Assembly (NCBI GenBank): GCA_016211105.1
Contig: JACQSX010000037.1
Coordinates: forward strand, 1 to 64,000
DNA from: Acidobacteriota bacterium
GTDB taxonomy: Bacteria; Acidobacteriota; UBA6911; JACQSX01
Direction of reading: 5' to 3'
DNA: 64,000 nt
Shown here: in pieces, positions 14,754-27,226 of the stretch
How the letters are laid out: each line of letters begins with the position of its first letter
Numbering within the stretch: the stretch's first letter is position 1
The notes under the pieces: generated by a model
Told to the model about the DNA's origin: nothing
Databases searched by the model: none
The model's input: the letters and a program-made list of their open reading frames with translations, nothing else
Made by a program: the position numbers and the translations under genes

Positions 14754-15437
14754 CTATCGTTCCGCCTTATTCAACTGCTCAGCTCCGGCTGCGAGTGCCT
14801 GCAATTTCTGCAACGCCTGTGCGGGGTGCTTTTGACTGAAAATTGATGATCCAACCACAATTAAATCCGCACCATATTTTACCACAAGCTCGATATTTTC
14901 CGGCCCGATCCCGCCATCAATCTCCGTCAAGGCTCTGGCACCAGTGGCGAGTTTCAACTGCTTCAGCTTCTGTAGTTTGTCCAGGCTGTCTGCAATAAAA
15001 GTCTGGCCCCCAAACCCCGGATTGACCGACATGATCAGTGCATAATCCACTGCTGGCAAGATCTGTTCCAAAACGGAGACCGGCGTAGCAGGATTGATAA
15101 CGATTCCCGCCCGTGCTTGCGCCTGATGAATTTGTTGCACCACACGGTTTGCGTGAGCAGTAGCCTCATGGTGGAAGCTAACCCAGTCAGCGCCCGCCTC
15201 CACAAAGGTTTCGATATATTTTTCCGGTTCCACAATCATCAAATGGACGTCAATTATCATCCGTGTGATTCTTCGGATGGATTTCAGGACAGGCACTCCG
15301 ACGCTTATGTTGGGGACAAAGCGGCCATCCATCACATCAAAGTGGAGCATCTGCGCTCCGACGGCAGCTACCTCCTCGACCTGGCGCTGCAAATTTGCAA
15401 AATCTGCCGAGAGCAGCGAGGGGAGGATTTGCGCCAT
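14754..15437 (-). CDS. rpe: Ribulose-phosphate 3-epimerase
   Basis: A 227-residue TIM-barrel enzyme of the pentose phosphate pathway, interconverting ribulose 5-phosphate and xylulose 5-phosphate. Family marks are ILPSLLSADFANL at the start, the metal-binding HFDVMDG, DVHLMI, the flexible loop MSVNPGFGGQ, and the final phosphate-binding GADLIVVGSSIF. Its ATG overlaps the stop of the PASTA gene by one base (TAATG), so it is translated from the same message. Confidence 0.96.
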   Translation of the reverse strand: MAQILPSLLSADFANLQRQVEEVAAVGAQMLHFDVMDGRFVPNISVGVPVLKSIRRITRMIIDVHLMIVEPEKYIETFVEAGADWVSFHHEATAHANRVVQQIHQAQARAGIVINPATPVSVLEQILPAVDYALIMSVNPGFGGQTFIADSLDKLQKLKQLKLATGARALTEIDGGIGPENIELVVKYGADLIVVGSSIFSQKHPAQALQKLQALAAGAEQLNKAER

Positions 15438-16159
15438 TATCTGCTAACCTCCAAACGGACCGGTCTCCCGTCACCCAACGGATAACCCGCTTCAGGCACC
15501 TGCTTCACCACTGCCGCCATCGGGACACCCTGATAGAGACCATAAGTAATCTCTGAAACTCTCACTTTGTTTCGCTCCAGGAGCGCCAGGGCTCGATTTA
15601 CGTCCCAACCAATTAGATCAGGCATTACATAAAGATTTGGCTCTCTCACCCTGTTGATCAAAACATCGATTTTGTTGCCCACTAATTCCGTTGTCTTCGG
15701 CGTGGGAAACTGCGTCACGATTTTTTCCGGCTCGGCTTCCTGCAAATGAATCTCGCTCACCGTCCCGAGTTCAAAGCCCTGTTGTGCCAACAACAACTGC
15801 GCTGCCCGAAGCGTGCTTCCTTCCAGGTCAGGAATTGGATTAACTCGATTCCCTAAACTCACAATTACGTTGACGATGTTTCCCTTCTTAATCGGTGTGT
15901 CCGAAATGGGGAACTGCGTGGAAATTTTGCCTCGGGCCACGTTGCGATCATAACGCTCGCCGCGAACTTTCACCTGCAGATCAATGCTGGCCAAAGCATT
16001 ACGAGCTCGTTCCAGCTCTTGTCCGACCAGATTTGGTATCACCACCTCCTGCCCGCTGATCACCCATTTCATGGCAGCAAAAAAACTGATAAACCCGACT
16101 GCCAGAACAATCATGGACAGAAGGAACACTTTGCCGACGCGAAAAAACCACTTCTGCAT
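15437..16159 (-). CDS. Membrane-anchored protein with three PASTA domains
   Basis: A 240-residue protein with a single N-terminal membrane helix (VFLLSMIVLAVGFISFF, residues 11-27) and three consecutive PASTA repeats (about 38-104, 105-172, 173-240), each with the pattern V-P-x-L-x-G. PASTA domains usually bind peptidoglycan fragments and sit on PrkC-type kinases or PBPs. Here no kinase domain is present. Predicted to face the periplasm. The fmt-PASTA-rpe order suggests shared expression rather than shared function. Role unknown; peptidoglycan sensing is inferred from the domain. Confidence 0.85.
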   Translation of the reverse strand: MQKWFFRVGKVFLLSMIVLAVGFISFFAAMKWVISGQEVVIPNLVGQELERARNALASIDLQVKVRGERYDRNVARGKISTQFPISDTPIKKGNIVNVIVSLGNRVNPIPDLEGSTLRAAQLLLAQQGFELGTVSEIHLQEAEPEKIVTQFPTPKTTELVGNKIDVLINRVREPNLYVMPDLIGWDVNRALALLERNKVRVSEITYGLYQGVPMAAVVKQVPEAGYPLGDGRPVRLEVSR

Positions 16160-18502: not shown

Positions 18503-19261
18503 ATGAATTTCATCTACAGAGCTATCTTCGAGGTTCAGGAGTTCTTCCTTCTCTGTGTCCACGCCATCGCTAATATCTTTAGAAAACCGCGCTACCACCA
18601 GGATATTTTGCTGCAGATGGACGTCATTGGGGTCGGGTCGTTAATTATTATCATCCTAACTGGCTTTTTCACAGGCGCGGTCTTGGCGCTTCAATCGGCG
18701 AAATCTCTAAAGTCCTTTGGCGCCGTGGGATTAACTGGGCAACTGGTGGCCTTGTCGCTCATCAAAGAATTAGGACCCGTATTGACAGCATTGATGGTGG
18801 CCGGCCGGAACGGCTCTGGAATCGCATCAGAACTTGGCTCTATGGTGGTGACGGAGCAGATTAGCGCCATGCGGGCTTTAGGCACGGATCCGACGCGGAA
18901 ACTCGTGACTCCCCGTATGATCGCCGCCACCACCATGGTGCCATTGCTGACAGTCATAGCTGACCTGTGTGGCTTGTTGGGCGGTTGGTTGGTTTCGTTT
19001 TACAAGCTGCGCCTGAGCACCTCACTTTATTGGTCGGCAGCGATGAAAGCGATTGATTACAACAATGTTTTGGAGGGCATAACAAAGCCGTTTGTTTTCG
19101 GATTCATCATCGCAATGATCGGATGCTACTGCGGCTTGCGAACTCATGGTGGCACGCAGGGAGTGGGACGATCTACAACTCAGGCCGTTGTATTTTCATC
19201 GATTTTGGTGATCGCAGCCGACTTTTTCATGAGCAAAATCATTCTCGATTTAAGGTACTGA
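18503..19261 (+). CDS. mlaE: MlaE-type ABC lipid transport permease
   Basis: A 252-residue inner-membrane permease of the MlaE/YrbE family, which with MlaF and MlaD moves phospholipids between the inner and outer membranes. Marked by GFFTGAVLALQSAKSLKSFG, the conserved coupling region SELGSMVVTEQISAMRALGT and the terminal KIILDLRY. Five or six hydrophobic segments are visible. It is followed two bases later by mlaF and then mlaD. MlaB and MlaC genes are not in the window. No clear ribosome site precedes the ATG. Confidence 0.94.
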   Translation: MNFIYRAIFEVQEFFLLCVHAIANIFRKPRYHQDILLQMDVIGVGSLIIIILTGFFTGAVLALQSAKSLKSFGAVGLTGQLVALSLIKELGPVLTALMVAGRNGSGIASELGSMVVTEQISAMRALGTDPTRKLVTPRMIAATTMVPLLTVIADLCGLLGGWLVSFYKLRLSTSLYWSAAMKAIDYNNVLEGITKPFVFGFIIAMIGCYCGLRTHGGTQGVGRSTTQAVVFSSILVIAADFFMSKIILDLRY

Positions 19262-19263
19262 CA

Positions 19264-20076
19264 ATGTCAGCATCCAGCTCAGCAATGATCAAACTGCAGG
19301 ACGTTACTAAGTCCTACCTTGATCAAGAGGTTCTGAAGAGCATCAATCTGGAGGTCGGGAGAGCTGAAACCAAGGTGATCATGGGAGGCAGCGGCGCCGG
19401 CAAGTCAACCATTATCAAATTAATATTGGGCCTGGAAAAGCCAGATTCTGGCCGGATCTTCATCGAGGGAGAAGATATCACTCCGCTCAGCGAACAAGAG
19501 TTGATGCGTGTGCGAAAGAAGATCGGAATGGTCTTCCAGGAAGGGGCCTTATTCGATTCTCTCACGGTCGGAGAAAACGTCGCCTTTAAGCTCCGTGAAG
19601 AGAGCGTCTATGACGAGGACGAGACACAAGTGGTGGTACGACGACTGCTGGGCTTTGTCGGCCTGGAGAACGCCATCGACAAGATGCCTTCAGAACTCTC
19701 AGGAGGGATGCGCAGACGGGTTGGCATCGCTCGGGCTCTAGTCGGGAACCCCAAAATTATGCTGTATGACGAGCCCACCGCGGGACTGGATCCGATGACG
19801 TCCAGAACCATTTCTGAGTTAGTAATCAAATTACGCGACTTGGAAGGAGTCAGTTCCATATTCGTCACCCACGATTTGAGCACCGCCTTCACGCTCGCCA
19901 GCCAATTCGCGGTGGTCAAGAATGGGAGCGAGGTGCAATTTCTGGGAGAAGATGGAAAACTCTGCCTGATTAACACGCGGTTTGTCATGATTTACGATGG
20001 TAAAATTCTTTTTGAAGGAACGGACGAGGAACTGAAATACTTTGATCATGAGTATATCAAGGAATTTCTCGCCTGA
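19264..20076 (+). CDS. mlaF: MlaF-type ABC ATPase
   Basis: A 270-residue ATPase driving the Mla lipid transporter. Walker A is GGSGAGKSTI, the signature is LSGGMRRRVGIARAL, Walker B is IMLYDEPTAGLDP and the switch histidine is in FVTHD. The Q-loop reads GMVFQEGALFDSLTV, as in the Mla/Ttg2 subfamily. It starts at ATG 19264 just after the mlaE stop. The sequence MRRRVG in the signature motif is typical of this subfamily. Confidence 0.95.
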   Translation: MSASSSAMIKLQDVTKSYLDQEVLKSINLEVGRAETKVIMGGSGAGKSTIIKLILGLEKPDSGRIFIEGEDITPLSEQELMRVRKKIGMVFQEGALFDSLTVGENVAFKLREESVYDEDETQVVVRRLLGFVGLENAIDKMPSELSGGMRRRVGIARALVGNPKIMLYDEPTAGLDPMTSRTISELVIKLRDLEGVSSIFVTHDLSTAFTLASQFAVVKNGSEVQFLGEDGKLCLINTRFVMIYDGKILFEGTDEELKYFDHEYIKEFLA

Positions 20077-20088
20077 GGAGACGTCGAA

Positions 20089-21444
20089 ATGGAGAGAAAA
20101 AAACGCTTTGTTTGGGCACAACTAAAGGTAGGTATCTTTGTGATCACTGCTCTAGTCACCGCGGCCGTCGGTATTCTGTCCATTGGGACGGTGAGCGTTT
20201 TCGCGCCGAAAGTGAACGCAAAAACCTATTTAGCGGGAGTATCAGGTCTGAAAGAGGGCGACGTCGTGTTGCTGCAGGGGGTCGAAGTCGGCAACGTCGG
20301 AGAGGTCAGGATCACCAAAGACCCCCCACCCACCGATACCAACCGCCAAGCGATCCAAGCAATCGATGAAAATACGCGCAAGATCGAGGTGTTGCAGACC
20401 CAACTTGTGGAGCGCCGCAATCAACTCAAGGAGATGCGCGACGAATACGGAAAGCTCCTCGCCAAGGACCCCAAGAGCGCGCGCCAATTGGAAAACCAGA
20501 TTGAACGCACACAGAGATTGACCGAAGCAGAATTGCAGGAGCTGGATAATGCAAGAGACGCTTTGGAGAACGCCAAAGCAAGCCTGCAAAATATCGAGGT
20601 CACGATGGTGATCGAAAAAAAATACGAAGACCGGATCAAGCGAGATTCCCATGTCACGTTAGGAAGCGCCGGATTGATGGGTGACAAATATGTGGAGATC
20701 TCCTTGGGACGCACGAACATTCCCCCGGAGCGCGACAAAGATGGGGCCATGGTCATTGCCGGGAGCAGAGTCACAGATTTTCGGGAAATCATGACAGGCG
20801 TGGATGACGTAATAGCCAATTTTGGAGTCCTCTCGCAGAGAATGGAAAATATTATGGCTAAGTTTGACGAAGGCCAGGGCAGTATCGGTAAGTTTATCAA
20901 CGATCCTGCTTTTTATAACAATCTTAATGACACCATTCTCGAAGCAAAACACACGGCAAATACCGCCAGCTCCTTGATCAATAACATCCAGAGCGGTCGC
21001 GGAACGGTTGGGAGGCTTGTGACCGACAGCAAGATTTACGACACACTGGAAGCGACCACCGATAGATTGGAATCGTTGGTCAATCGCATCAATTCCAACC
21101 AAGGCTCAGTAGGCAGATTTATCAACGATCCGACAATCCATGACAAAACGAGTAAGGTGATCTCTGGTGTCGATGAGATTACGCAACGCATCAACAAAGG
21201 AGAAGGGACGCTGGGAAGGTTGTCGAAAGATGAGGCTCTGTACCAGAACGCTCAAGATACGCTTCAGAAGCTGACCGCTCTAGTCGACGACATCCATCAG
21301 GGAAAAGGAACACTGGGAAAGCTGGCTAAGGACCAACAAGTTTACAATAACCTGAACGAGGCATCTTCGGAGATTGCGAAGCTGCTGTATGATTTCCGCA
21401 AAAATCCTAAGAAATACTTGACGATTAATTTTAAAATTTTCTAG
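20089..21444 (+). CDS. mlaD: MlaD-like MCE protein with split MCE domain
   Basis: A 451-residue periplasmic substrate-binding subunit anchored by one N-terminal helix (residues 13-35). The MCE domain is present but split: the first half (about 43-76, GLKEGDVVLLQGVEVGNVGE) and second half (about 167-208, ending GLMGDKYVEISLG) are separated by about 90 residues of charged coiled coil (TRKIEVLQTQLVERRNQLKE onward). After the MCE domain come four or five repeats of about 37 residues (GSIGKFINDP, GTVGRLVTDS, GSVGRFINDP, GTLGRLSKDE, GTLGKLAKDQ). Such helical tails form the needle-like shaft of MCE hexamers in other systems. Confidence 0.9.
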   Translation: MERKKRFVWAQLKVGIFVITALVTAAVGILSIGTVSVFAPKVNAKTYLAGVSGLKEGDVVLLQGVEVGNVGEVRITKDPPPTDTNRQAIQAIDENTRKIEVLQTQLVERRNQLKEMRDEYGKLLAKDPKSARQLENQIERTQRLTEAELQELDNARDALENAKASLQNIEVTMVIEKKYEDRIKRDSHVTLGSAGLMGDKYVEISLGRTNIPPERDKDGAMVIAGSRVTDFREIMTGVDDVIANFGVLSQRMENIMAKFDEGQGSIGKFINDPAFYNNLNDTILEAKHTANTASSLINNIQSGRGTVGRLVTDSKIYDTLEATTDRLESLVNRINSNQGSVGRFINDPTIHDKTSKVISGVDEITQRINKGEGTLGRLSKDEALYQNAQDTLQKLTALVDDIHQGKGTLGKLAKDQQVYNNLNEASSEIAKLLYDFRKNPKKYLTINFKIF

Positions 21445-22071: not shown

Positions 22072-23181
22072 TCACGGCTTCTTGGCAGGTTCCACGGCCG
22101 TTGCTTTCGGCAATTCCTCATCGATCATCTTGGCAATCTCGTCATAAGGCACTGCTCCCGCAATGAAACGGCCATTAATAAACATCGCGGGCGTTCCATT
22201 GACCCCGGCGCGGGAGCCGTCGCGTACATCCTGCCTGACCCTTTCGGCGTAGCGGCTGGAATCCAAACACTCATTAAAAGAAGTCGTATCCACTCCAATG
22301 GCAGCGGCTTTTGCCTTGATGTCTCCTAACTCCAGGCTTTTCGGTTCCTGAAAAAGTAAATCATGCATTTCCCAAAAATGATCCTGCTCGTTGGCACAAA
22401 GGGATGCTTCGGCCGCCTTTTGGGCATGGGGATGATTGGCGAGAGGGAACTGTCGAAACACCAACCGTACCTTTTCGGCGTAATGCTTCTCCACTTCTTT
22501 CAACGTCTTCACCAGGCGGGTACAATATGGGCACTCAAAGTCAGAAAACTCCACGATGGTCAACGGAGCGCTGGCAGAACCGCGGGCAGGATGGTTGGCC
22601 GTTTCCACGCTTGTGCGCAGGGGCTCCAAGAAGGACTTAACTCCATATTGGGTCTTGAGCCGCCCGATAAAGCTATTATGGAGCTCCTGCCGGCGCGTCT
22701 CTTTGAGATATTGCCGAATCTGAGTGGTTACTTGCTCCTTGGGCATGCCGATTTGACCTTTGTTGGCTTCATAAAAATTATCGACATCATCATCGGAAGG
22801 TTCCTGCACCTTGCTCTGCACCTCCGTGGCAAGCAACTCCGTTCTTGTGATTCCGCGCTGCGCAACCTCGGCGTCCAACAGCTTCTCTTCCACCAGACGA
22901 TTGAGACTTACCTCCACAATCTGGTGCTTATTTCGAGTGAATTCAGCCTGTAGCACCGATTGCTGCATTTCAAGTCTTTCGAGATCCATGCGCGCGGCAT
23001 TTTGCACCTGCTCCTCCGTAACCGCGACGCCATTCACCATCGCCAAGGTCTTGGAACCGGACGGACCACCTCCTTGAGCAAGCAACGGCTGGCACCATAA
23101 GAGCCATGCGCCCTGGATCAGAAGAAGGCTGAAGAAGTTGATCAAAGAGCTACATACTTTCCTTTTCCTACACAGCAACAC
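22072..23181 (-). CDS. Exported DsbA-like thioredoxin with SurA-like N-domain
   Basis: A 369-residue exported protein. A signal peptide (FFSLLLIQGAWLLW, then PLLAQ) leads into a helical SurA/PpiC-type N-domain (MVNGVAVTEEQVQNAA, LNRLVEEKLLDAEVA; about 47-185). The DsbA-type thioredoxin domain (205-355) has a CPYC centre (C217, C220) and the cis-proline loop NGTPAMFING. It is probably a thiol oxidase or isomerase with a built-in client-binding arm. GTG start at 23181 with AAGGAG eight bases upstream. It is the last gene of the run that begins at 28771. Confidence 0.88.
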   Translation of the reverse strand: MLLCRKRKVCSSLINFFSLLLIQGAWLLWCQPLLAQGGGPSGSKTLAMVNGVAVTEEQVQNAARMDLERLEMQQSVLQAEFTRNKHQIVEVSLNRLVEEKLLDAEVAQRGITRTELLATEVQSKVQEPSDDDVDNFYEANKGQIGMPKEQVTTQIRQYLKETRRQELHNSFIGRLKTQYGVKSFLEPLRTSVETANHPARGSASAPLTIVEFSDFECPYCTRLVKTLKEVEKHYAEKVRLVFRQFPLANHPHAQKAAEASLCANEQDHFWEMHDLLFQEPKSLELGDIKAKAAAIGVDTTSFNECLDSSRYAERVRQDVRDGSRAGVNGTPAMFINGRFIAGAVPYDEIAKMIDEELPKATAVEPAKKP

Positions 23182-24252: not shown

Positions 24253-25002
24253 TTACCCCAGTTGAACGTCTTTGGGAAGCGTTAACTTAAACTTGCTCTT
24301 GTCAACACCGGGATTCAATCTCAGGTCGCTAAACGTAATCAACTGGTAATCACCGTTGGGCTCGATCAACTTCTGCTGAATCGGTAGCCAGACCAGCTCG
24401 GCAACCCAGAGTACAATCTGGGAAAAGTATGCAGCGACCTTTTCGGATTTGGGAAGCAATTCTAGCATGTAGGTTCTTTTCCCGTCTATCTTTTCCTCGC
24501 CTAGCAGACGAATATTGTAGGTGTCCGAAAGAGAGCGGCTACTCGAGCCAAAGCCCAGCACCAGGAATTCTGCTTTGTCCTTGTTTTTACCCAACTGATA
24601 TTTTCGCGCCTGCTTGATTCGAGGTTCGTAAAAGATGACCTCTCCATTGCTGATCACCAACACATTGTTTTCTGGATTGGCAATCTCCTTGCGCAGATAA
24701 GCCTGGCCATCCTTGCTTCGAAGGTACCACAGAGTACCGCTTTCCCCTCGATCAAACTCTTGGAGAACAGCGGTCCATTTCTTTTGAGAAATCGTCGCCG
24801 AAAAATTCGTTACTTTCCTACCCGCAGCCTCCATGCTAGCCAGGATTTCTTCCTTCGTGGCTCCAAGGGCGAAAGTACACGAGAGAAACCAAAATGCGGA
24901 GAGCAGAAATCGGCAGGCAGAAGTTCGCAGTCTCGTACAAGCTGGCTTCGCTCCGTGCCCCGTTTGCCTGCCATCCTCTGCTTTCAACACTTCGATTGCC
25001 AT
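24253..25002 (-). CDS. LolA-like outer-membrane lipoprotein carrier
   Basis: A 249-residue exported protein with a LolA-type fold: FSATISQKKWTAVLQEFDRG, then LWYLRSKDGQAYLRKEI, ISNGEVIFYEPRIKQARKY and the closing ITFSDLRLNPGVDKSKFKLT. LolA ferries lipoproteins or other lipids across the periplasm. The signal peptide is FLLSAFWFLSCTFALG at about residues 32-47, so the ATG at 25002 gives an unusually long charged lead; a start nearer the signal is possible. Upstream in the same run are an ABC ATPase, its permease and a lipoprotein, which together resemble a Lol pathway. Confidence 0.82.
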   Translation of the reverse strand: MAIEVLKAEDGRQTGHGAKPACTRLRTSACRFLLSAFWFLSCTFALGATKEEILASMEAAGRKVTNFSATISQKKWTAVLQEFDRGESGTLWYLRSKDGQAYLRKEIANPENNVLVISNGEVIFYEPRIKQARKYQLGKNKDKAEFLVLGFGSSSRSLSDTYNIRLLGEEKIDGKRTYMLELLPKSEKVAAYFSQIVLWVAELVWLPIQQKLIEPNGDYQLITFSDLRLNPGVDKSKFKLTLPKDVQLG

Positions 25003-25059
25003 CTTCTTTTTTGCGCACCCTTTTCCGACAAAACCTCCGAAAACAGAAAAATCCTACCG

Positions 25060-25314
25060 TCACTCTCTCTTGTCGGCTCCGGTAATCTTCCGCTCTTTGT
25101 CTATTTCTGAATCCGGTGGGTTGTTTTGAGGGGGGCTGGCATCTTGGATTGTCGCTACCGCTGAATGCACGCGCGTGAAATCGCCCTGCAAAAAATTTCG
25201 GGGAGTCAAAACGATAAATGCAATGATCAGAGCGCACATCACATCGTACTGCCAAGTCCCACGCGCATAACTCCACATTAAGATATTCAATATCGCTCTG
25301 CCGATCTTGTGCAT
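25060..25314 (-). CDS. Small conserved membrane protein
   Basis: An 84-residue protein with one membrane helix (DVMCALIIAFIVLTP, about residues 24-38) after the motif GRAILNILMWSYARGTWQYD and before a hydrophilic tail. I recall similar small proteins with the pattern ARGTWQYD, a helix and then TPRNFL in acidobacterial genomes, without known function. The hydrophobic segment and position between the ABC ATPase (76 bases before) and lolA (57 bases after) support a real gene. Confidence 0.65.
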   Translation of the reverse strand: MHKIGRAILNILMWSYARGTWQYDVMCALIIAFIVLTPRNFLQGDFTRVHSAVATIQDASPPQNNPPDSEIDKERKITGADKRE

Positions 25315-25389
25315 TGACTTGCGGTTGACGTTAGCCCCAGGACGAAGGCGGGATCTATCCCCAGCCGCTCCCCCGCGACCCGCCTGTGG

Positions 25390-26142
25390 CTAAAAAACCC
25401 CTGACTCCATTGCATAAACCACATTCTGTACCCGGTTTAGAATCCTCCCATCTTTCATTTCCACCACCCGGCTGGCGTAAGAAGCTACTTCCGCGTTGTG
25501 GGTAATCATGATCGTGGTCTGTTTGTACTGCTCATTTAAGTTTTTCAACAGCGTTAGCACCATTTCACTGTTAGTAGAATCCAGATTCCCTGTAGGCTCA
25601 TCCGCCAACAGTATCGTGGGACGATTGATGATGGCACGCGCAATTGCCAGCCGTTGCTGTTCTCCTCCTGACAATTCGAAGGGTTTGTGGCGCAGTTTGC
25701 TTTCCAAACCCACCTGGGCGCAAATTTCCTCGATCTCATGGGACGTTCCGCCGTTCTTACGAATTTCCTGGGCTAACCGAAGATTATCGCGAGTAGTAAG
25801 AGTAGGTAGAAGATTAAAGCGCTGAAAGACAAAACCGATCTTCCGCCGTCGTATCTCGGTTCGCTCACAATCAGCGGCCTTTCCGATTTCCACCCCATCG
25901 ACATAAACTTCTCCATACGTCGGCTGAAGCAGGCCCCCCAGGATATGTAACAACGTCGATTTGCCGCACCCTGATGGCCCCATGATCGCAACGAATTCTC
26001 CCGGCTTGACCACCAGATCCACTCCCTTGAGAGCATGGATTTCTATCTTGGCAACTTTGAAAGTCATGCGCAAATCGCGCACTTCGATAATACTTTTTAC
26101 ATTTCGCACTTCACGCAGCAAGCCATTCCCCAAGCTATTCAT
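25390..26142 (-). CDS. MacB/LolD-type ABC transporter ATPase
   Basis: A 250-residue ATPase of the MacB/LolD subfamily, whose members couple ATP to mechanical work by FtsX-type permeases. Walker A is GPSGCGKSTL, Q-loop FQRFNLLPTLT, signature LSGGEQQRLAIARAI, Walker B ILLADEPTGNLD and switch MITHN. The start at 26142 overlaps the permease stop by eight bases. Substrate is not set by sequence; the LolA gene two positions downstream makes lipoprotein or lipid extraction a fair guess. Confidence 0.93.
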   Translation of the reverse strand: MNSLGNGLLREVRNVKSIIEVRDLRMTFKVAKIEIHALKGVDLVVKPGEFVAIMGPSGCGKSTLLHILGGLLQPTYGEVYVDGVEIGKAADCERTEIRRRKIGFVFQRFNLLPTLTTRDNLRLAQEIRKNGGTSHEIEEICAQVGLESKLRHKPFELSGGEQQRLAIARAIINRPTILLADEPTGNLDSTNSEMVLTLLKNLNEQYKQTTIMITHNAEVASYASRVVEMKDGRILNRVQNVVYAMESGVF

Positions 26143-27226
26143 AACTAAGCGCCTGAACCGGATCTTGTTTGGCCGCTTTCAATGCCGGATAAATCGCCCC
26201 AAGCAATCCTCCAGAAATCCCCAGCGCGGCAGCCAACAAGCGCCATTGAATTGAAATTTCGATGGGGAGCAACGGGAAGGTCACTGCAATCAATTTGTTA
26301 ACCGCAAAGGCTAGCAAAAAGCCAACACCCACGCCAATGGCACAAATGAGTAGCGATTCCTTCAGGATGATATTCACAATATACAGTTTGGATGCACCCA
26401 AAGATTTTAGAATTCCAATCTCGCGAGTACGCTCCGTGATCGTGGTATACATTGCCAACAAGATAATCAGGAAACTGATCATCGTAGCCAACCCTACCAC
26501 AGCATAAATGAAATTCCGGAAAATCGGCAAGTTATCGGTCATTAAACTTTGTAACTGAGACGAAGCAGTGACCTTATAGCCAGGGATCCCCGCACTTAAA
26601 TTCCGAAGGACTGTTGCTTCGGCAAACTTCGACTGACGACGGACAAAAAACAGCGAAACCTTCTCCGGAGTTCCATTTAATTCCTGCAGTGTCTTAAGGG
26701 GAACGATCACTCGAGCACCTACACCACTACGAAAAACCCCACAGACCCTAAAATTACTGTTGAGGAGGTGCAGCATGTCTCCAATGTGAATTTTCTTGCT
26801 TGTCGCGTAGAGCGTATCGATTGCGGCCTCAAATCCCGCGTGAGGCAATCGGCCAGCTCCAAATACCAAGCCTCCGCTCACTCGATTGTAGCTTTCCGCC
26901 TCAACCCCATACACGAGGTTGAATCCAGGAGTGACAAACTTGGCAAGTACTGGCGCAGCCCGCTCCACTCCATCGATTCTCTCAATAACTTGGCTCAGTT
27001 TTTCGGGCATGGTCCCGCTGTTTACTGCAAAGAACAACGATGCATCCGATGGCTGAAGAATAAAGTCCCCACTAACGCGGCGTGTTCGATCCGCGCTTTC
27101 ATTCAGTTGACCGTAGGAAAGACCCACCGAAACCAAAATCAACACAATGCCTAACGCCACGGCCATAATACTCACCAAAGTCCGTGTTGGCCTCTGCAAC
27201 AAGTTAGAGCAAATTAATCGAAACAT
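26135..27226 (-). CDS. FtsX/MacB-type ABC permease
   Basis: A 363-residue permease with the four-helix layout of the MacB/LolCE superfamily. The first helix is LVSIMAVALGIVLILVSVGL. A periplasmic domain spans about 45-240, followed by three helices in the FtsX domain (AVVGLATMISFLIILLAMY, then the coupling sequence TREIGILKSLGASK, and LLICAIGVGVGFLLAF). A single permease implies a homodimer, as in MacB, rather than the LolC/LolE pair. The ATG at 27226 is four bases after the lipoprotein stop. Confidence 0.92.
   Translation of the reverse strand: MFRLICSNLLQRPTRTLVSIMAVALGIVLILVSVGLSYGQLNESADRTRRVSGDFILQPSDASLFFAVNSGTMPEKLSQVIERIDGVERAAPVLAKFVTPGFNLVYGVEAESYNRVSGGLVFGAGRLPHAGFEAAIDTLYATSKKIHIGDMLHLLNSNFRVCGVFRSGVGARVIVPLKTLQELNGTPEKVSLFFVRRQSKFAEATVLRNLSAGIPGYKVTASSQLQSLMTDNLPIFRNFIYAVVGLATMISFLIILLAMYTTITERTREIGILKSLGASKLYIVNIILKESLLICAIGVGVGFLLAFAVNKLIAVTFPLLPIEISIQWRLLAAALGISGGLLGAIYPALKAAKQDPVQALSYE

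Follow-up and report, generated by a model that had tools for sequence, protein, structure and literature searches.

In PqiB, Mce1 and MpcD, an MCE ring is combined with a helical needle located C-terminal to the MCE domain, as described in the part of the source available to us (PMC12436622). A long helical C-terminal region is likewise described for MlaD of Veillonella parvula and other diderms, in which MlaEFD occurs without MlaA and MlaC, and for two long MlaD forms lacking the barrel, a terminal mini-barrel of six strands was predicted (PMC10665443, available sections). Helices can also be inserted into the MCE domain itself. Indeed, MlaD of Acinetobacter baumannii carries a helical insert of 45-47 residues within this domain, reported between strands 4 and 5 (PMC6365058, PMC7677376) and modelled as two helices (PMC8241846). 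According to the extracts available, this insert was called unique to that orthologue, with an unknown role (PMC6365058), and its function was called unclear (PMC7677376). The view of an earlier note on the present DNA, that helical elements extending from within an MCE domain were not known, is thus corrected by these reports. Searches judged by titles and abstract starts returned no openly licensed paper on an insert in acidobacterial MlaD.

The window analysed here is a stretch of 64,000 nucleotides from an Acidobacteriota bacterium (GCA_016211105.1, contig JACQSX010000037.1), whose draft genome of 3.5 Mb in 52 contigs is 93.6% complete. On its forward strand, mlaE (18503-19261) encodes a permease of 252 aa (PF02405, E 4.4e-77; TIGR00056 above cut-off) and mlaF (19264-20076) an ABC ATPase (PF00005, E 2.5e-36). 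The listed open reading frame of mlaF begins at 19123, and the ATG at 19264, just past mlaE, was taken as its start from the sequence. Directly 3' of these two genes lies mlaD (20089-21444, +), a frame of 451 aa with GAGGAG 5' of its ATG. Its product matches Pfam MlaD (PF02470) at 48.1 bits, for a curated cut-off of 25.1, in two stretches, and is the sole MCE protein found by profile search in this assembly. No match of this protein to the plasmid collection was obtained at E 1e-5. A CDP-alcohol phosphatidyltransferase gene (PF01066; 21448-22044, +) starts 3 nt after mlaD. Other genes of the window include, all on the reverse strand, one for a protein that combines a SurA-like domain at its N-terminus with a DsbA/thioredoxin domain (22072-23181), a possible lipoprotein-sorting set (24253-27226) in which a gene of the LolA family neighbours those of an ABC ATPase and a permease resembling FtsX/MacB, and a free-standing PASTA-domain protein (15437-16159) in which the Pfam kinase domain was not found at E 1e-5.

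A model of MlaD was obtained with AlphaFold2 from 52 aligned sequences, namely the window MlaD and 51 of 77 relatives with a full reading frame. After an N-terminal membrane helix (residues 7-37; 20107-20199, +), seen in the model and hydrophobic in sequence, the seven-stranded MCE barrel fold is present in two halves. The first (residues 41-75; 20209-20313, +) contains strands 1-3, modelled at 41-48, 59-62 and 65-75. The second (residues 169-225; 20593-20763, +) contains strands 4-7, at 169-176, 188-193, 200-204 and 221-225, strands 5 and 6 being joined by the loop 194-199. In the genome search, the two PF02470 stretches, 20221-20325 and 20584-20703, correspond to profile positions 6-40 and 40-79. 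Hence, a single break interrupts the 81-position profile, at position 40. Residues 39-228 of the model superpose on E. coli MlaD (5uw8_B, which also supports the limits of the second half) with a Z of 15.6 and an rmsd of 2.0 Å over 98/98 residues, and the intervening segment was therefore added to an intact MCE fold. It occupies the β3-β4 hairpin, before strand 4, where E. coli has the loop DPKTYLP; model and alignment agree on this place.

The insert itself comprises 93 aa (residues 76-168; 20314-20592, +) and is predicted, with pLDDT block means of 91-98, as an antiparallel hairpin of two helices, 83-126 (20335-20466) and 128-164 (20470-20580), linked by a one-residue turn. That it sits at the β3-β4 site and is predicted as a hairpin is near certain. 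Its residues 81-167 contain 37% of D/E/K/R and show a hydrophobic period of 3.52 residues (power 10.7 versus a shuffled mean of 2.2), the power near period 3.5 being reached in 0/2000 shuffles. The earlier reading of two MCE halves split by about 90 charged, heptad-like residues is therefore borne out, as is a coiled coil inside the domain, which the AlphaFold2 model shows; the single helix is replaced in this model by a two-helix hairpin. Taken arm by arm, the heptad periodicity is supported for arm 2 (p 0.0005) and is not significant for arm 1 (p 0.09). Across 15 long inserts, ILMVFYW residues fill 71% and 68% of the a/d positions versus 9% and 8% of the others, with a register picked on the same 15 sequences as were scored, and the hydrophobic face of the hairpin is restricted to a/d. 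From the helix rise of 1.5 Å per residue (textbook value), helices of 44 and 37 residues give an arm of 55-66 Å.

Conserved single residues occur at the base of the hairpin. In the same 15 long inserts, P80 is found in 15/15, T82 in 13/15 and N85 in 14/15 on the first side, and L166 in 11/15, Q167 in 14/15 and N168 in 12/15 on the second. Entropy averages 1.6 bits at the second base (159-168) and 2.0 bits at the first (76-90), where conservation is limited to single residues, versus 2.2-2.5 bits in the arms and 2.28 bits at the tip, which is about as variable as the arms, neither more so nor better conserved. A relative with a short insert (L055) is also predicted to form a hairpin (83-101 and 109-124; pLDDT block means 89-96). 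Structural matches of the hairpin, with Z values of 10.7-11.6, include CHMP4B, seryl-tRNA synthetase, moesin and LSD1; being generic hairpins under the caution level for helical matches, they were rejected as specific relatives. Similarly, the helical parts gave Pfam and NCBIfam matches (T4SS, Rad50, SMC and others) that all fall under their cut-offs and are taken as coiled-coil likeness.

The distribution of the insert was surveyed in the best 80 of 127 relatives, from records named Acidobacteriota. Of 78 loci, 14 have a segment of 88-98 residues at the insert site, 14 one of 53-56 and 50 one of 9-16, one of the latter (L102) being masked upstream; the remaining two (L059 and L106) are cut by contig ends. 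The 9-16 residues of relatives devoid of the insert argue against its being a normal MCE loop. They also lead to the rejection of a phylum-wide insert, which the earlier note had suggested checking by alignment of acidobacterial proteins. In a phylum sample, the MCE domain was found in 187/198 genomes, and the matches listed, which do not by themselves count inserts, are all contiguous (207-273 nt). Within the window's class, whose genomes overlap with the 80-locus survey, MlaD was found in 34/38 genomes and the insert in 34/34 of these (16 long and 18 short; 30 genomes read in sequence and 4 by match length, with G013 cut by a contig end). Drafts of lower completeness or higher contamination account for the 4/38 genomes without an MlaD match, and the tally is 21/21 when the class is restricted to completeness of 90% or more and contamination of 5% or less. 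Outside the class, a long insert was detected in four genomes, three of family f25 (G051, G064 and G075) and one of family f41 (G085), with 82-90 residues in the three included in the tree; a further genome of family f25 (G095) gave no MlaD match.

The tree was built from 46 MlaD proteins, i.e., the window MlaD, 42 hand-chosen from the 80 loci and three from outside the class, after removal of the insert columns. On this tree the presence of the insert requires one change, on a branch supported at 99/99, while the three length classes require three. The long forms from outside the class stand beside the long forms of the class, a weak placement (support 85/68). A single gain is the simplest reading, change counts not separating gain from loss. 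The 98-residue and 56-residue forms differ by 42 residues, or six heptads. No claim of length change by heptad steps is made, because the place of the deletion is ambiguous and lengths of 53, 88, 92, 93 and 97 do not fit. Besides, six neighbour genes of the window were sought beside the mlaD loci of relatives. The CDP-alcohol phosphatidyltransferase gene was found downstream of mlaD at 12/14 long-insert, 14/15 short-insert (one of the 15 is cut) and 7/50 insert-free loci; this association may follow the clade, and no link to the insert is made.

Downstream of the barrel, a C-terminal helical region (residues about 231-438; 20779-21402, +) contains five G(S/T)xG(K/R) repeats starting at residues 264, 305, 339, 373 and 407. 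Four or five repeats of about 37 residues had been expected; the number five stands and the spacing is revised to steps of 41, 34, 34 and 34. The mean pairwise identity of the repeats is 27% versus 6.5% after shuffling (maximum of 1000 shuffles, 12%), and they are visible in the protein only, no DNA repeat of 20 bases being found in this region. Helices are modelled between 231 and 444 at low confidence (from residue 231 on, the block means of pLDDT lie at 35-68). The five repeats match the known long-MlaD needle type. The protein ends with an amphipathic strand-like segment, KKYLTINFKIF (residues 441-451; 21409-21441, +), and a similar ending is present in 73/77 relatives, from which the search pattern was itself derived. 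Since residues 445-451 have pLDDT values under 50 and form no strand in the monomer model, the terminal strand is considered here as putative.

MlaA was found in 0/40 genomes, MlaC in 2/40 and the PqiC family above its cut-off in 1/40, with MlaA and MlaC both found in the E. coli and Caulobacter controls. None of the three was found in the window genome, where these absences are provisional because the draft is 93.6% complete. The locus therefore departs from the E. coli-type Mla pathway (MlaA-MlaC-MlaFEDB), for which neither the MlaC shuttle nor MlaA was found in this genome. One of the two genomes with MlaC (G028) combines a long insert with its MlaC-family gene, and two others (G006 and G017) encode a second MCE protein without insert, with a PqiC-like gene nearby. 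Hence, the insert is not strictly tied to shuttle-free transport. These second MCE loci are L126/L135 (G006:C148) and L130/L134 (G017:C94), each with a PqiC-family (PF03886) match close by on the same contig, that of G006 being below the curated cut-off.

Based on these data, the window MlaD would be the MCE subunit of a long-type MlaFED system, an ABC transporter of lipids that works without shuttle proteins. At the inner membrane it would assemble into a ring of six, whose C-terminal repeats would build a needle that crosses the periplasm and, on reaching the outer membrane, closes with a small barrel of six strands. Each protomer would also bear its antiparallel coiled-coil arm, of helices of 44 and 37 residues, in the β3-β4 hairpin. 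With its base fixed to the ring, this arm would most likely act as a rigid spacer or brace, keeping ring and needle a fixed distance away from the needle wall, the peptidoglycan or neighbouring rings, and its length would have been altered in evolution while the barrel was left unchanged. We infer the hexamer, the needle, the direction of the arms and their spacing role from the computed features; the conserved base residues and the retention of the arm throughout the class point to a rigid spacer or brace. We give this reading, a ring with a needle and six spacing arms, a probability of roughly 45%.

Helical hairpins projecting from the beta domain of a periplasmic ring are a feature of the HlyD, MacA and AcrA adaptors, which belong to a different family from the window MlaD. 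By analogy with these adaptor hexamers, the arms could reach a periplasmic or outer-membrane partner. The architecture, a hexameric inner-membrane ring with hairpins leaving a beta domain, would be similar in principle, and a docking arm could have its place in a genome where none of the bridging families known, MlaA, MlaC and PqiC, was detected. However, the tip is conserved in neither sequence nor length, which argues against a specific tip-to-tip contact, and neither Pfam nor NCBIfam matched a HlyD-family domain in the window MlaD with E values up to 0.1. As for a partner encoded nearby, among the six neighbour genes sought, the one more common beside insert-bearing mlaD genes, the CDP-alcohol phosphatidyltransferase, also follows seven insert-free ones. 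Docking of this kind is therefore considered unlikely, though it may occur through the side or the base of the arm.

The variation of the tip and of the length is also what would be expected from a neutral, lineage-specific expansion of a loop with no function of its own, and related acidobacterial groups do without the insert. Arguing against such an expansion are the presence of the insert in 34/34 of the class genomes that have MlaD, its retention over deep branches of the tree, its conserved base residues and its a/d pattern, and we regard the expansion as rather improbable. Finally, the arms could surround the C-terminal needle and form a further helical shell outside it, which is geometrically possible with six hairpins of 55-66 Å per ring, if hexameric, and with heptads on both arms across the family, but the faces outside a/d are polar (8-9% ILMVFYW) and leave little hydrophobic surface for packing between hairpins, so that such a sheath is quite doubtful.

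The same polar surface makes a separate coiled-coil arm likelier than a second six-fold bundle. The proposal of the earlier note that the hexamer would hold a second helical bundle formed by the insert is accordingly not retained, a free two-stranded coiled coil fitting the composition better than a 12-helix bundle. A double-walled MCE machine, with six arms surrounding the needle as an outer cage or collar, appears improbable. If true, it would represent a second way to build a periplasmic helical shell, gained once in Acidobacteriota, with arms lengthened or shortened to suit the envelope; together with the A. baumannii insert, it would mean that helical arms were grown independently from adjacent loops of the MCE barrel. 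The occurrence of an arm in every MlaD found in a class shows that an MCE ring can accommodate such arms and retain them. Forms of the same protein with a long arm, a short one or none occur naturally and provide a means to test the role of the arm.

The closest known counterpart of the insert remains that of A. baumannii MlaD (PDB 6z5u, 7d06), since both proteins are MCE barrels interrupted by a two-helix insert. The identity of the two inserts was considered and rejected. The alignment of the E. coli and A. baumannii proteins is gapless from E. coli residue 36 to 86, through strand 4, within a phmmer stretch covering 1-89 on both sides, and the A. baumannii insert comes next, one loop further on than that of the window. 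MAFFT overlaid the two inserts; this overlay is held to be an artefact because of the gapless alignment through strand 4. Pairwise alignments also scatter a few residues of the shorter protein inside the inserts (e.g., DPKTYLP of E. coli in the middle of the window insert), which are taken as chance matches. Judging from these alignments, the two inserts look independent and lodged in neighbouring loops, after strand 4 in A. baumannii and between strands 3 and 4 here. The acidobacterial arm is thus differently placed and much longer, the A. baumannii insert being about half its length, and the 226 aa of A. baumannii MlaD leave no room for a repeat region. The window MlaD resembles the Veillonella-type long MlaD in its long helical C-terminal region and in a genome where MlaA and MlaC were not found, but the Veillonella protein has a C-terminal beta-barrel of its own, unlike the window MlaD, and the available part of the report on long MlaD forms does not mention an insert within the MCE domain (PMC10665443). 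Among MCE rings with a helical needle, Foldseek matches of the window MlaD include 8fed/8fef. In PqiB, Mce1 and MpcD, as far as the part of the report available to us goes (PMC12436622), the needle follows the MCE domain, whereas in the window MlaD a second helical element arises from within it. C-terminal MCE needles were already known, and so were helices inserted into an MCE domain; the long coiled-coil arm in the β3-β4 hairpin of MlaD, the subject of none of the openly licensed papers listed in the searches, is taken as new.
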